A DNA stretch of 33,624 nucleotides from positions 1 through 33,624 of the IMG/VR virus record IMGVR_UViG_3300042458_001472. One strand, 5' to 3'. The translations under genes and the position numbers were made by a program. The notes under the pieces were generated by a model. It searched no databases, was not told where the DNA came from, and saw nothing but the letters and a program-made list of their open reading frames with translations. This document shows, one piece after another, positions 26,441 through 33,624 of the stretch; the first letter of the stretch is position 1, and every line of letters begins with the position of its first letter. The DNA is from a virus.

Positions 26441-27472
26441 ATGTCTGATCGTAAGCTTGCTACCGTCCGTCGCGTTGCGGACATTCAGCCCATCCCTGAT
26501 GCTGATGCTATTGACGTAGCTACGGTTGACGGATGGAAGGTTGTAGTCAAGAAGGGCGACTTCCAGGTCGGTGATCTGGCTGTGTACTTTGAGATTGACT
26601 CTTGGATTCCAAAGGCTATTGCGCCTTTCCTGAACCGTGGCCGTACGTACAACGGAGTTGAGGGTGAACGTCTGCGAACAATTAAGCTTTGTAAGCAGAT
26701 CAGCCAGGGACTTCTGCTCCCGGTGTCTGCTGTAGCCACATTTGATGAACGGGATTCCAACTCGTACATTTGTGATATTGACTATCTTGTAGAGGGTGAT
26801 GATCTGACCGAGTATCTTCAGATTCAGAAGTACGAAAAGCCCATTCATGGTTCTCTTGCCGGTGTAGTCAAGGGTAATTTCCCTAGCTTCCTGCGCAAGA
26901 CTGATCAGGAACGCGTTCAGAATCTTACTAAGGACATCCGTCGTTGGGAAGAGGAAGGCGCTCGGTGGGAAGTTACCGAGAAGCTTGATGGCTCTTCGAT
27001 GACGGTTTATCGGCACAATGATGTGACCGGTGTCTGCTCTCGTAACTATGATCTGGAAGAGACCGAAGGCAATGCATTCTGGCAGGCTGTTCGTCGTGAA
27101 GATATCGACCAGCGCCTTCCTGCAGGTTTTGCTCTGCAGGGCGAGCTGATTGGCCCTGGTATTCAGGGCAATAAGTATGGTCTTGATGCCACCGACTTCT
27201 TTGTCTTTGATGTCTGGGATATCAACAAGTCTTGCTACCTGACTCCCGATGAGCGCCGTAAGTTTTGCAAGGCCTTTGCCTTCAATCATGTTCCTGTGCT
27301 TGCTACCGGAACGACTGGCACTTCTGACGTTAATGCACTAATTGCATCGGCCGATGGCCAGTCTCTAATTGGTAAGAAGCCGCCTCGCGAAGGAATGGTG
27401 TACAAGAATATGGCTAATGACACTAGCTTCAAGATTATTAGTAATCGCTGGCTACTGAAGAACGAGGAGTGA
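26441..27472 (+). CDS. RNA ligase, Rnl5/DraRnl-like
   Basis: This 343-residue protein has a two-part layout. An N-terminal OB-fold-like domain (residues 1-150: VDGWKVVVKKGDFQVGDLAVYFEIDSWIP) is followed by a nucleotidyltransferase domain with motif I EKLDGSSM (active Lys near 180), a motif III-like FVFDVWD after FALQGELIGPGIQGNKYG, motif IV EGMVYKN, and motif V SFKIISNRWLLK. The N-terminal OB domain is the arrangement of Deinococcus RNA ligase (Rnl5), which seals nicks with a 3'-OH RNA end. In the phage it may repair tRNAs or other RNAs cut by host defences. Confidence 0.9.
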   Translation: MSDRKLATVRRVADIQPIPDADAIDVATVDGWKVVVKKGDFQVGDLAVYFEIDSWIPKAIAPFLNRGRTYNGVEGERLRTIKLCKQISQGLLLPVSAVATFDERDSNSYICDIDYLVEGDDLTEYLQIQKYEKPIHGSLAGVVKGNFPSFLRKTDQERVQNLTKDIRRWEEEGARWEVTEKLDGSSMTVYRHNDVTGVCSRNYDLEETEGNAFWQAVRREDIDQRLPAGFALQGELIGPGIQGNKYGLDATDFFVFDVWDINKSCYLTPDERRKFCKAFAFNHVPVLATGTTGTSDVNALIASADGQSLIGKKPPREGMVYKNMANDTSFKIISNRWLLKNEE

Positions 27473-28620: not shown

Positions 28621-28649
28621 TTGACAAATCAAGGAATTTGATATATAGT
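28621..28649 (+). promoter_or_regulatory. Promoter for the structured RNA array / Ro-like gene
   Basis: TTGACA (28621-28626), a 17-bp spacer, and TATAGT (28644-28649). The whole promoter lies within an inverted repeat, GGTTGAC / GTCAACC (about 28619-28625 / 28648-28654), with an inner ATCAA / TTGAT. Confidence 0.7.
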
Positions 28650-28661
28650 CAACCTATAAAT

Positions 28662-28690
28662 TGAATGAGACACTCACTAAGCCTCATTCC
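28662..28690 (+). ncRNA. Leader hairpin before the RNA array
   Basis: GAATGAG and CTCATTC form a perfect 7-bp stem around a 12-13-nt loop. It lies at the expected 5' end of the transcript, just before the first array unit. It lacks the CAGCA motif. Confidence 0.55.
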
Positions 28691-28698
28691 CGACTATT

Positions 28699-28761
28699 AG
28701 GATCGGTTCAGCAAACAAAAAACGCTAAACCCTGTAAGTCTTAGCGGACCAAAACGATCCC
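28699..28761 (+). ncRNA. Structured RNA array unit 1
   Basis: The closing stem is GGATCG / CGATCC (28700-28705 / 28755-28760), with the motif GTTCAGCAAAC just inside the 5' strand. An internal hairpin CGCTAA / TTAGCG follows. GGTTC can also pair with GGACC in the 3' part. Units of the same plan follow at 10-17 bp spacing. Confidence 0.6.
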
Positions 28762-28771
28762 GACAAGTTTT

Positions 28772-28863
28772 AGGAAGCTTGCAGCAAACCATATCTAACT
28801 CAATGGTAGAGCAATCGCCTTCAACGCGATAGGAGCGGTTCAAATCCGCACTATAGGCTTCCT
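28772..28863 (+). ncRNA. Structured RNA array unit 2, with a tRNA-like core (anticodon TCA)
   Basis: The closing stem is AGGAAGC / GCTTCCT (28772-28778 / 28857-28863), with the CAGCAAACC motif inside. The core imitates a tRNA: D-arm CTCAATGGTAGAG, perfect anticodon stem ATCGC / GCGAT with loop CTTCAAC (anticodon TCA at 28821-28823), and T-arm GCGG-TTCAAAT-CCGC. A normal acceptor stem and CCA are missing. This layout recalls bacterial YrlA Y RNAs, where a tRNA mimic is held by a Ro-binding stem. Confidence 0.6.
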
Positions 28864-28873
28864 GTCTAATATT

Positions 28874-28995
28874 AGAGTGGTTACAGCAACACCGTCGCGC
28901 CTACAAGCGCATCCAGAACAGTTGGGGAGCTTCGGCAAAACCAACAACCTTGTTCTTCGATTTCTCAAGGCTAAAAAAGAAGTAGGAGCCACTCT
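28874..28995 (+). ncRNA. Structured RNA array unit 3
   Basis: The closing stem is AGAGTGG / CCACTCT (28874-28880 / 28989-28995), with TTACAGCAACACC inside. Internal hairpins include GCGC / GCGC, AGAACA / TGTTCT and, nested in the latter, GTTGG / CCAAC. It is the longest unit (122 nt). Confidence 0.58.
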
Positions 28996-29012
28996 GTTAC
29001 TTTATTAGTTCT

Positions 29013-29103
29013 AGGATCGGTTCAGCAAAACCTTTTAGTTGGTTCGACTCCAACATTGCCAACCAAGACCTGGCAGCTGCCCGAGGGGGCAAAAAACGAT
29101 CCT
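29013..29103 (+). ncRNA. Structured RNA array unit 4, with tRNA-like T-arm and CCA before an acceptor-like strand
   Basis: The closing stem is AGGATCG / CGATCCT (29013-29019 / 29097-29103), with GTTCAGCAAAACC inside. The core has T-arm GTTGG-TTCGACT-CCAAC followed by ATTGCCA-ACCA, then TGGCAGC, which can pair with TTGCCA, and a GCCC / GGGC hairpin. The order of halves is that of a permuted tRNA. Confidence 0.58.
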
Positions 29104-29114
29104 GTTATAACCCT

Positions 29115-29163
29115 AGGTTGGGTTCAGCATCTAAAGCTTTGATATAGCAACCAAGTCCAACCT
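29115..29163 (+). ncRNA. Structured RNA array unit 5
   Basis: The closing stem is AGGTTGG / CCAACCT (29115-29121 / 29157-29163), with GTTCAGCATC inside and a further GGTT / AACC pairing. It ends 22 bp before the start of the Ro-like gene, so the array probably continues into its mRNA leader. Confidence 0.55.
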
Positions 29164-29185
29164 GTTAAACATTATGGAGATTATG

Positions 29186-30610
29186 ATGAATACGTTCGTA
29201 AATGCCGTTATCAACCAAGATTCCAGAACTCAGAATGGTATGAAGGCTCGTGCTTCTACCGCGTCTGCATGCGTAGACCTCTTCTTCAAGATTGGCGCTC
29301 TGCGTGGACAGGATCCTATTCCTGCGTTTACGGCGGCATTTGTTGAGGATGCCGAGATTGCCACTCGTATTGCACTCTGGGCTCGTGATGCCCGCAATGG
29401 TGCAGGTGAGCGTGAGATCTACCGTAAGGTTCTTCGTCATGCAGCAAAGAATCTGATGGGTCATGAGCTGACTCGACTCATTGACAAGACTCCTGAGCTC
29501 GGCCGTTGGGATGACCTTCTGGTTCTGCTTGAGGACGATGTAGATGAAGACATTCAGAATGTTGTTGCATCCAAGATCGGCCGTGCACTGATGGCCAATG
29601 ATGGTCTGTGTGCCAAGTGGACCCCGCGTAAGGGTGCTATGGCTGTCAAGCTGCGCAATAAGCTCGGCATGAGCCCTAAGCAGTACCGCAAGACCCTTGT
29701 CACTGCATCTAAGGTTGTTGAGACTCAGATGTGTGCCAAGAACTGGGATGAGATCAACTTCTCTCATGTTCCGTCTGTAGCGGCTAGCCGTTATAAGAAG
29801 GCCTTCAACCGCCACACTCCGAAGTATAAGGAGTGGGTTGATAAGCTGGTCAAGGGCGACAAGACTGTAAAGGTTAACGCTGGTGCAGTTTATCCGTATG
29901 ACGTCCTGAAGGGTGTCAGCAACTACGCTTGGCGTTCAGACTATAACAAGACTGAACTTGATGTCGTTAAGGCTCAGTGGGATGCTCTGCCTAACTACGT
30001 TGGTGATGCTAACGTGTTGGCTCTTGTTGACGTCTCTGGCTCAATGGGTGCTGGTGTTGCAGGTGGTAAGACTACCGCAATGGACGTAGCTGTCAGCCTT
30101 GGTCTGTACTGTGCTGATAAGAACAAGGGCAAGTTCAAGGATACATTCCTGACCTTCTCTTCTTCCCCTCAGCTTTTGCATCTGAAGGGTGATATCCTGC
30201 AGAAGGTGCAGCAGATGGTAACTTCGAAGTGGGAGATGAATACCAATCTTCATGCTGCGTTTGAGAAGATTCTTGACGTTGCAATCAAGGGTGATGTACC
30301 TCAGTCCGAGATGCCTGCTACTCTGCTGATCATGTCTGACATGCAGTTTGACCAGTGCACTCGCTTTGATGATACTGCAATGCAGATGATTCGCCGTAAG
30401 TACGAAACTGCTGGCTATACTGTTCCGAATATTGTGTTCTGGAACATCATGGCAGCTAGCAATGTGCCGGTGAAGTTCAATGAGCGTGGAGTTGCTTTGG
30501 TCTCCGGCTTTAGCCCTTCGATCTTGAAGTCCGTGCTCTCAGGAGACATGGAAGATATGACTCCAACGGGTGTTATGATGAAGACTATCATGCATGAGCG
30601 CTATGCCTAA
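29186..30610 (+). CDS. Ro60/TROVE-like RNA-binding protein with vWA domain
   Basis: This 474-residue protein has an N-terminal helical-repeat region (residues 1-240) with segments such as VDLFFKIGALRGQD, ALWARDARNGAGEREIYRKVL and GRWDDLLVLLED. This pattern is typical of TROVE/DUF2828-type proteins. A C-terminal von Willebrand A domain has the metal site DVSGSMG (272-278) and LLIMSDMQFD. Ro60 proteins bind misfolded RNAs and Y RNAs and can gate RNA degradation. Start: ATG 29186, five bases after GGAGA. It follows an array of structured RNAs including a tRNA mimic. Strong codon bias suggests high expression. Confidence 0.82.
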   Translation: MNTFVNAVINQDSRTQNGMKARASTASACVDLFFKIGALRGQDPIPAFTAAFVEDAEIATRIALWARDARNGAGEREIYRKVLRHAAKNLMGHELTRLIDKTPELGRWDDLLVLLEDDVDEDIQNVVASKIGRALMANDGLCAKWTPRKGAMAVKLRNKLGMSPKQYRKTLVTASKVVETQMCAKNWDEINFSHVPSVAASRYKKAFNRHTPKYKEWVDKLVKGDKTVKVNAGAVYPYDVLKGVSNYAWRSDYNKTELDVVKAQWDALPNYVGDANVLALVDVSGSMGAGVAGGKTTAMDVAVSLGLYCADKNKGKFKDTFLTFSSSPQLLHLKGDILQKVQQMVTSKWEMNTNLHAAFEKILDVAIKGDVPQSEMPATLLIMSDMQFDQCTRFDDTAMQMIRRKYETAGYTVPNIVFWNIMAASNVPVKFNERGVALVSGFSPSILKSVLSGDMEDMTPTGVMMKTIMHERYA

Positions 30611-30720: not shown

Positions 30721-30775
30721 ATTACAAATTTGTAATAAAACTACCGTTGACAGCCTCCTACAATCCTGGTATAAT
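30721..30775 (+). promoter_or_regulatory. Early promoter with perfect ATTACAAATTTGTAAT palindrome
   Basis: The palindrome at 30721-30736, a 10-bp gap, TTGACA (30747-30752), a 17-bp spacer and TATAAT (30770-30775), then a leader shared with the promoter at 31083 (TATAATGGTCATATCAACAG and following bases). Confidence 0.88.
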
Positions 30776-30803
30776 GGTCATATCAACAGAGGGATACGAC
30801 GAG

Positions 30804-31025: not shown

Positions 31026-31088
31026 CGGTCTAGGTTACAAAAAGTTAACAAATCTACCGTTGACAAAGTGACCTAGACCGGTTATAAT
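31026..31088 (+). promoter_or_regulatory. Early promoter inside a long inverted repeat
   Basis: TTGACA (31060-31065), a 17-bp spacer, and TATAAT (31083-31088). GTTACAAAAAGTTAAC (31034-31049) sits at the palindrome position, 10 bp from the -35. CGGTCTAGGT (31026-31035) and ACCTAGACCG (31071-31080) form a perfect 10-bp inverted repeat across the upstream element, -35 and spacer. Confidence 0.82.
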
Positions 31089-31115
31089 GGTCATATCAAC
31101 AGAGGGAATCAGACA

Positions 31116-32902: not shown

Positions 32903-33199
32903 ATGTCTTATGTGCGTCTTTCTGACATTGAGTTCGCTACTCCTGAACATCGTGCCGCTTGTGAGACGTTATACAAAGATATCCTTGCTCTAGAATTTCA
33001 AATTCTCAACGATGAAGAAATGCTAGAATACTTCAAGAGCGTCATGGGTGAAAAAATGGGCAATGTAATTGCTGGTCCTACAGTCATGATTAATAAGAGA
33101 ATCTTGACAGCAATGAAGTTGACTTTCTGGTACTACACTAACAAGTCACCTTCTCACGTAGTTGGTCATGAGCCGAAAATGAACATATTTAATCCTTGA
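32903..33199 (+). CDS. Hypothetical protein (98 aa)
   Basis: This 98-residue protein (MSYVRLSDIEFATPEHRAACETLYKDILALEFQILNDEEMLEYFKSVMG...) has an acidic helical first half and a second half with KRILTAMKLTFWYYTNKSPSH. It starts with AAAGG upstream. Its coding end (TCCTTGACATT) lies at the -35 of the tmRNA promoter. I do not recognise the family. Confidence 0.72.
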   Translation: MSYVRLSDIEFATPEHRAACETLYKDILALEFQILNDEEMLEYFKSVMGEKMGNVIAGPTVMINKRILTAMKLTFWYYTNKSPSHVVGHEPKMNIFNP

Positions 33200-33226
33200 C
33201 ATTAATCACTAAGTGTGATATAAATA
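33196..33226 (+). promoter_or_regulatory. Hybrid early/late promoter for tmRNA
   Basis: TTGACA (33196-33201), a 17-bp spacer, and TATAAATA (33219-33226). It has the same double-use layout as the promoter before the first tRNAs. Confidence 0.78.
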
Positions 33227-33230
33227 CAGA

Positions 33231-33490
33231 GTTGCCGTTGATAACGATCAAATAAGTTAGTCAGGACCGCGGGGCAGTACCGCGCATCTCCACCAATTTT
33301 TGGTAGCTCGCCTAAGTTCTGGATGCTTTAAAGAGCAAGAGGAAAACTCTGCCGCCAGTATGGGGATGAAACAGGATCGACTGATAACAGTAAGGGTTGA
33401 AGTAGGCACCGGTGCGGAAGCTACCTTAACGCAACAAAACAAACAAATGCTAATTCGAATGAAAGACTAGCGTTGGCAGCTTAATTGCTG
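33231..33490 (+). ncRNA. ssrA: Circularly permuted two-piece tmRNA
   Basis: The acceptor piece comes first: GTTAGTCAGGAC, T-arm CGCGG-GGCAGTA-CCGCG, CATCTCC and ACCA, ending at 33295. After a 66-nt spacer the coding piece starts with GGGGATG (33362-33368), which pairs with CATCTCC to give the 7-bp acceptor stem, then AAACAGGATCGAC. CTGATAAC pairs with GTTAGTCAG as helix P2. The tag frame is 33449-33484 and encodes ANSNERLALAA, followed by hairpin CAGC-TTAATT-GCTG (P5). tmRNA frees stalled ribosomes and tags the stuck protein for proteolysis. The right end of the coding piece is not certain. Confidence 0.9.
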
Positions 33491-33624
33491 TCGGAGTTTG
33501 TAGGGTACTCGGCAACAGAAACTCTACGTTTTCTACCACCTGACAGATTTGGTGCTTGTAGTTTTGTCAAACCTTTATTCCAACCACCACCTCTGGTGCA
33601 ATCAGCACATTTTCTACTACAATA
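33481..33624 (-). CDS. C-terminal part of an antisense homing-endonuclease-like gene (partial)
   Basis: A minus-strand frame enters at the right edge and ends at TAA (33483-33481), inside the tmRNA P5 region. The 47 visible residues include YCSRKCADCTRGGGWNKGLTK, whose zinc-binding Cys pairs and WNKGLTK tract are common in phage HNH-type homing endonucleases. The rest is a basic tail (GGRKRRVSV). The start and nuclease core lie outside the window, so the assignment is tentative. Confidence 0.5.
   Translation of the reverse strand, partial: YCSRKCADCTRGGGWNKGLTKLQAPNLSGGRKRRVSVAEYPTNSDSN

Follow-up and report, generated by a model that had tools for sequence, protein, structure and literature searches.

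A tandem array of structured units lies beside a Ro60-type gene

We analyzed a stretch of viral DNA of 33,624 nucleotides (nt) (IMG/VR record IMGVR_UViG_3300042458_001472, positions 1 to 33,624; hereafter, the window), in which a tandem array of five short units, each with a closing stem and a CAGCA-type inner motif, runs up to a gene whose product has a predicted Ro60 fold. A preliminary description of the sequence had proposed five structured RNAs here, partners of a phage Ro protein. The five units were confirmed at positions 28699-29163, each combining a closing stem of 6-7 base pairs (bp) with the inner motif NTnCAGCA. The features of the locus are as follows.

28621..28649, + strand: promoter-like site, sigma70 type, TTGACA-17-TATAGT; 11 of 12 consensus positions, with about 1.4 such sites expected by chance in the scanned stretch
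28699..28761, + strand: unit 1; arm AGGATCG, inner motif GTTCAGCA, closing strand CGATCC (6 bp), inner hairpin CGCTAA/TTAGCG, flank CGACA; the weakest of the five
28772..28863, + strand: unit 2; arm AGGAAGC, 7-bp closing stem, TTGCAGCA, tRNA-like module; flank TGTCT, not TGTTA
28874..28995, + strand: unit 3; arm AGAGTGG, 7-bp closing stem, TTACAGCA, 108-nt module, hairpin containing TTCGATT; AAGAAGTAGGAG precedes the 3′ arm
29013..29103, + strand: unit 4; arm AGGATCG, 7-bp closing stem, GTTCAGCA, circularly permuted tRNA-like module
29115..29163, + strand: unit 5; short, arm AGGTTGG, 7-bp closing stem, GTTCAGCA
29174..30610, + strand: gene for a protein of predicted Ro60 fold; open reading frame (ORF) of 478 amino acids, likely start 29186 (MNTF...) behind GGAG; alpha-helical ring domain and vWA domain with DxSxS MIDAS

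Every 5′ arm in the array has its own complement. CAGCA occurs 41 times on the + strand of the window. In four cases a perfect 7-bp Watson-Crick complement followed by G lies no more than 180 nt away, against an expectation of 0.16, and these four are units 2-5. Several details of the preliminary description required adjustment: its perfect or near-perfect stems are perfect over 7 bp in units 2-5 and extend to 6 bp in unit 1; its shared inner motif holds as NTnC[A/C/T]GCA, the AACC part not being general; its shared 3′ flank TGTTA fails in units 1 and 2; and the promoter assigned to the array corresponds to the site at 28621-28649, subject to the chance expectation given above. A pseudoknot between CAGCA and the complementary 3′ flank TGTTG was considered and rejected, because units with TTCCGCA and TTCTGCA keep the same flank and the linker is too short.

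The closing stem covaries and the element accompanies the gene across phages

Both covariation of the arms and homologues beyond this genome were found. To avoid circularity, units for the covariation analysis were picked by sequence anchors only, with pairing unused. All four variable stem positions paired in 140 of the 192 anchor-picked units, whereas 1000 shuffles gave 17.5 on average and never more than 33. Across 60 such units, 83% of stem cells paired, and the covariation score was 0.503 against 0.219 ± 0.020 when shuffled and at most 0.155 when slid.

Linkage of the element to the gene was assessed from both directions, and the co-occurrence foreseen in the preliminary description was borne out in each. 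The gene-first set comprised 102 loci, the window and 101 from IMG/VR, each represented by the gene and the sequence preceding it. One or more units lay in the 1500 nt upstream in 93 of them, adding up to 230 units, with none on the reverse strand or in shuffled sequence; gene and downstream sequence, 380 kb, held 13 units. A further set of 16 records searched with a relaxed finder (15 named phages and one contig of a Rickettsiales metagenome-assembled genome) had units in 13, namely 12 of the named phages and the bacterial contig, with 35 on the forward and 0 on the reverse strand. That contig, possibly from a phage, carries the single relative and one unit found in bacterial genomes. Conversely, an RNA-first scan of viral contigs looked for CAGCAA followed by a T-loop, ignoring the gene and returning loci with or without the closing stem. 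Of 27 records with a strong element, some few contributed by another pattern scan, 15 contained the Ro-like gene, versus 7 of 36 without such an element; on contigs over 100 kb, the ratio was 8/8 versus 1/7.

The unit-bearing phages infect Gram-negative and Gram-positive hosts, including Synechococcus, Rhizobium, Aeromonas, Listeria, Staphylococcus, Campylobacter, E. coli and Mycobacterium. Units lie upstream of the gene in Listeria P100, Aeromonas LAh_9, Synechococcus BUCT-ZZ01, Rhizobium RHph_I1_18 and Campylobacter NCTC12673, downstream of it in E. coli EC6, Staphylococcus SEP9, Mycobacterium Rose5 (three units) and Cronobacter S13, and far from it in some contigs. The EC6 units span 4715-5483 of L120. 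Because the same RNA signature adjoins the gene across such different hosts, Ro particles that have several RNA partners appear to be widespread in phages and sparsely described. In the tRNA-rich phage T5, which is without a Ro gene, the first 50 kb, including the tRNA region, contained no canonical unit. Several stable and tRNA-like RNAs of unknown function are annotated in its genome (L272 30284-33949 and 40848-41566); we rejected them as possible relatives since the element is absent.

Our search of the literature, which did not extend to subscription articles, found no description of the stem-CAGCA element. Transcription is high in three unannotated regions of Listeria phage CKA15, which are found upstream of an Rsr-like gene at distances of up to 2 kb, and the authors propose small interfering RNAs, Y RNAs or coding RNAs, so that Y RNAs are one possibility among three (PMC12282133). 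The related phage P100 has three of our units directly upstream of its Rsr-like gene, which may liken these abundant RNAs to the present array, although that report, in its accessible parts, defines no common motif. The report also cites Chen et al. 2014 for putative mycobacteriophage Y RNAs, with which the units of Rose5 may be compared. Moreover, its Table 1 lists the CKA15 Rsr-like protein in purified virions (20 peptides, 57% coverage); on this evidence, a phage Ro particle may be delivered along with the genome. A jumbo-phage survey had likewise recorded TROVE proteins in some phages (PMC7824862).

The neighboring gene product is predicted to adopt the Ro60 fold

The gene described earlier as TROVE/vWA is real, although Pfam assigned its 478-amino-acid product to DUF2828 and DUF7788 (vWA) rather than to TROVE. 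The protein belongs to PHROG 850, ‘RNA-binding protein’, and its MIDAS residues D286-S288-S290 were invariant in our alignment (A1). At least 676 sequenced phage records encode relatives, none of which reaches 60% identity; their usual annotation is hypothetical or RNA-binding protein. Searching PDB by sequence with the protein or its profile gave no match. An AlphaFold model (predicted local distance difference test score, pLDDT, 75.5) compared with PDB by Foldseek matched just six chains at E ≤ 1e-3, all Ro60, Rsr or TROVE proteins; they include two TROVE/Ro60 entries, Xenopus Ro with RNA, and Deinococcus Rsr. As Ro60-type chains alone were matched at this threshold, the window protein is assigned a Ro60 fold on the strength of the model. 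The second-best structural match was another phage-encoded Ro60 fold, that of Thermus phage phiLo (PDB 9l5y, one of the two TROVE/Ro60 entries), which nevertheless shares 17% identity with the window protein.

The units carry diverse modules, a subset of which resemble YrlA

Features beyond those of the preliminary description are the tRNA-like modules of units 2 and 4, the spread of the element among phages, and the interrupted tRNA genes described below. In the module of unit 2, the D, anticodon and T arms follow the normal order, with the loop CUUCAAC. ARAGORN called a tRNA-SeC at 28789-28858, and the Rfam tRNA model matched at 35.6 bits over model positions 8-63 only; we rejected a true tRNA-SeC, because the closing stem stands in place of the acceptor stem. 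Unit 4 consists of a T-arm (GTTGG-TTCGACT-CCAAC), an acceptor (ATTGCCA-ACCA-AGACC-TGGCAGC) and a hairpin in the place of the D-arm. Rfam searches of the array, of homologue neighborhoods and of one long module (L007, below) gave tRNA matches only and no known family; in agreement with the preliminary description, the classical Y RNA Ro-site is absent, a tRNA-like core being all that Rfam detected in the array.

We classified the modules of 185 non-redundant units. Those without a T-arm comprised 57 short, 58 medium and 43 long modules; 14 units had a T-arm-like hairpin only, and 13, namely window unit 4 and 12 others, had a T-arm with a capped acceptor, that is, a circularly permuted tRNA. The RNA-first set was rich in permuted tRNAs (most of about 30 units), and 24 of its 32 T-arm units kept a 7-nt anticodon-like loop with U33, presenting many anticodons. 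A permuted subclass (L142, L159, L172, L180, L181, L187, L192, L227) has a constant body, CUUU-CU-nnn-AA-AAAG, whose triplet nnn varies among phages (GUA, GAA, ACG, AUG, UAG, GGA), as though the phages were presenting anticodons as decoys. Long units of about 200-280 nt share a conserved module around GGAGGAAACnnnGTAAnGTGTC (L007 2501-2772, L016 2504-2775, L019 2512-2782 and relatives), a separate structured RNA domain that had no match in Rfam.

The closest known RNA is YrlA (RF02553), a partner of Ro60/Rsr-type proteins, a partnership that is putative for the phage units. In both, the two ends pair into a closing stem, next to which comes an asymmetric internal loop, and in a subset of the phage units the module is likewise a permuted tRNA of T-arm, capped acceptor and D-arm; alignment to the Rfam model confirmed the same permuted order. 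Matches to this model were obtained for units of Rose5 (36.4 bits, E=1e-4), L171 (33.6) and L205 (31.3), with E from 1e-4 to 3e-3. A permuted tRNA-like module on a stem of the two ends was found in a subset of units, and the location of a YrlA gene, adjoining that of a Ro60 orthologue, was found as well. The phage units differ from YrlA in their handle, where a 7-bp stem with NTnCAGCA replaces the YrlA terminal helix and AUGC-type loop; in addition, many phage modules are not tRNA-like, several units occur in tandem per phage, and an anticodon-like hairpin is often kept.

A probable phage Ro ribonucleoprotein with several RNA partners

We consider it probable that the array encodes several Y-RNA-like noncoding RNAs, presumably stable as separate molecules, which the neighboring Ro60-type protein would bind. 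The phage Ro ribonucleoprotein with several RNAs put forward in the preliminary description is favored by the predicted Ro60 fold, by the linkage to the gene across unrelated phages and by the YrlA-like layout of a subset. The best reading is a Y RNA variant with a Ro-site of its own and several RNA partners per phage. Kinship with Y RNAs lies in the fold of the partner, the placing beside its gene and, in a subset, the permuted-tRNA architecture; the handle is different and the set of modules much wider.

Several observations weigh against this assignment. The protein has no TROVE match by sequence in Pfam, and its match to vWA_Ro60 was not significant (E=0.089), so the assignment to Ro depends on a model with pLDDT of about 75 and on fold matching at a template modeling (TM) score of about 0.55. 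Three of the 16 gene-bearing records in the further set lacked a confident unit nearby, and 158 of the 185 modules had no recognizable T-arm. YrlA scores reached about half the gathering cut-off (36.4 against 69 bits at best), and the window array gave no YrlA match in Rfam.

In the mechanism we propose, the Ro-binding handle would be the 7-bp helix of a unit's two ends followed by an internal loop in which NTnCAGCA faces an A-rich strand. On this handle each unit would mount a different module, many of them, including those of units 2 and 4, acting as tRNA mimics. Bacterial Y RNAs suggest by analogy that the Ro ring and its RNAs could guide RNA-processing enzymes to tRNA-like substrates or keep them away; alternatively, the same analogy would allow tRNA-like decoys, such as anticodon loops, to be offered to host enzymes during infection. 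The common RNA signature names probable partners of phage Ro-like proteins and indicates that each phage has several distinct RNAs. The benefit that a Ro particle brings to phages is now a directly testable question, for example in coliphage EC6 (Felix-O1-like) or mycobacteriophage Rose5.

The same arm interrupts phage tRNA genes

The same arm, a hairpin with CAGCA after its 3′ strand, also sits inside the 5′ strand of the anticodon stem of phage tRNA genes, at about positions 28/29, in S13, BUCT-ZZ01, LAh_9 and contigs of L128, L131 and L137. The exons usually would rejoin to a good anticodon arm: ARAGORN called none of eight interrupted tRNAs as they stand and seven of the eight after virtual removal of the insert, the rejoined tRNAs including Gly UCC, Asn GUU and Lys UUU. 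In S13 (L114 5395-5515 and 5525-5637; record 132703-132945), genes annotated as tRNA-Ser and tRNA-OTHER carry the stem-CAGCA insert in the anticodon arm and become Thr GGU and Gly UCC once it is removed. The system thereby joins tRNA mimicry, permuted tRNAs and interrupted tRNAs, and flags mis-annotated tRNA genes.

These genes bear on a different explanation, in which the element is a processing signal: the arms would be cleaved and a phage RNA ligase would join the ends, yielding circles, matured tRNAs and spliced interrupted tRNAs, a protein-dependent form of tRNA splicing. Besides the position of the insert and the recovery of rejoined tRNAs, it draws on permuted units that are split at the same place and on RNA ligase genes nearby in the window, P100 and XbC2. 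The window gene, a possible partner of the system, lies upstream of the array:

26441..27472, + strand: RNA ligase, Rnl type with PHA02142 OB fold; Pfam RNA_ligase 3.5e-33; PHROG 968

However, many permuted units have acceptor ends capped by loops of 4-7 nt without CCA, and are therefore unlikely to become tRNAs. S13 carries an intact Gly-UCC tRNA beside the interrupted one, so this interrupted copy is not needed for decoding. Furthermore, many cut positions satisfy ARAGORN, so that no splice site is singled out, and a three-way junction could provide the anticodon stem without any splicing. We know of no splicing enzyme or machinery for such phage units. Circularly permuted tRNA genes of algae and Archaea similarly place the 3′ half before the 5′ half, joined via the acceptor end, but they mature through a bulge-helix-bulge motif and splicing endonuclease, and many of the phage acceptor ends are capped without CCA (PMC3978253, PMC3218864). 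A role as processing signal thus appears unlikely, and it is quite improbable that the Ro-like protein and the phage RNA ligase excise stem-CAGCA from interrupted and permuted tRNAs; were this true, bacterial viruses would have a protein-based tRNA splicing pathway and circular RNAs.

Units at the ribosome-binding site suggest autoregulation

In the window, 12 nt separate the end of unit 5 from GGAG, and 22 nt separate it from the probable start codon at 29186. Similarly, in 30 of 74 loci a gap of 8-24 nt lies between the end of the nearest unit and the ATG, which places the unit on or beside the ribosome-binding site; in KVP40 the start codon falls within the 3′ arm (AATGTC), and in DLP_6 the 3′ arm abuts GGAG. 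This placement suggests that the Ro-like protein binds its own leader, and within the ribonucleoprotein model the short unit would probably let the protein repress its own translation. It is very unlikely that the units are cis-regulatory only, as tandem protein-binding hairpins for autoregulation in the leader: the last unit often abuts the ribosome-binding site, as this would require, but EC6, SEP9, Rose5 and S13 have units downstream of the gene, other contigs have them far from it, and the units carry elaborate tRNA-like modules. Hardly credible is an array of genetic debris or mobile cassettes, broken tRNA genes between inverted repeats without RNA function, since the short linkers, variable content and tRNA fragments that might suggest it come with strand-specific covarying stems and a conserved single-stranded motif kept beside one gene across unrelated phages.

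Other features of the window

Two further features lie downstream of the Ro-like gene. Near-identical promoter/leader modules (CTACCGTTGACA ... TATAATGGTCATATCAACAGAGGGA) at 30740-30800 and 31055-31115 precede two small unrelated ORFs. At 33192-33530, a phage transfer-messenger RNA scored best as a permuted (two-piece) form (RF04321, 99.9 bits; alpha_tmRNA, 98.1 bits), for which ARAGORN gave the tag ANSNERLALAA.
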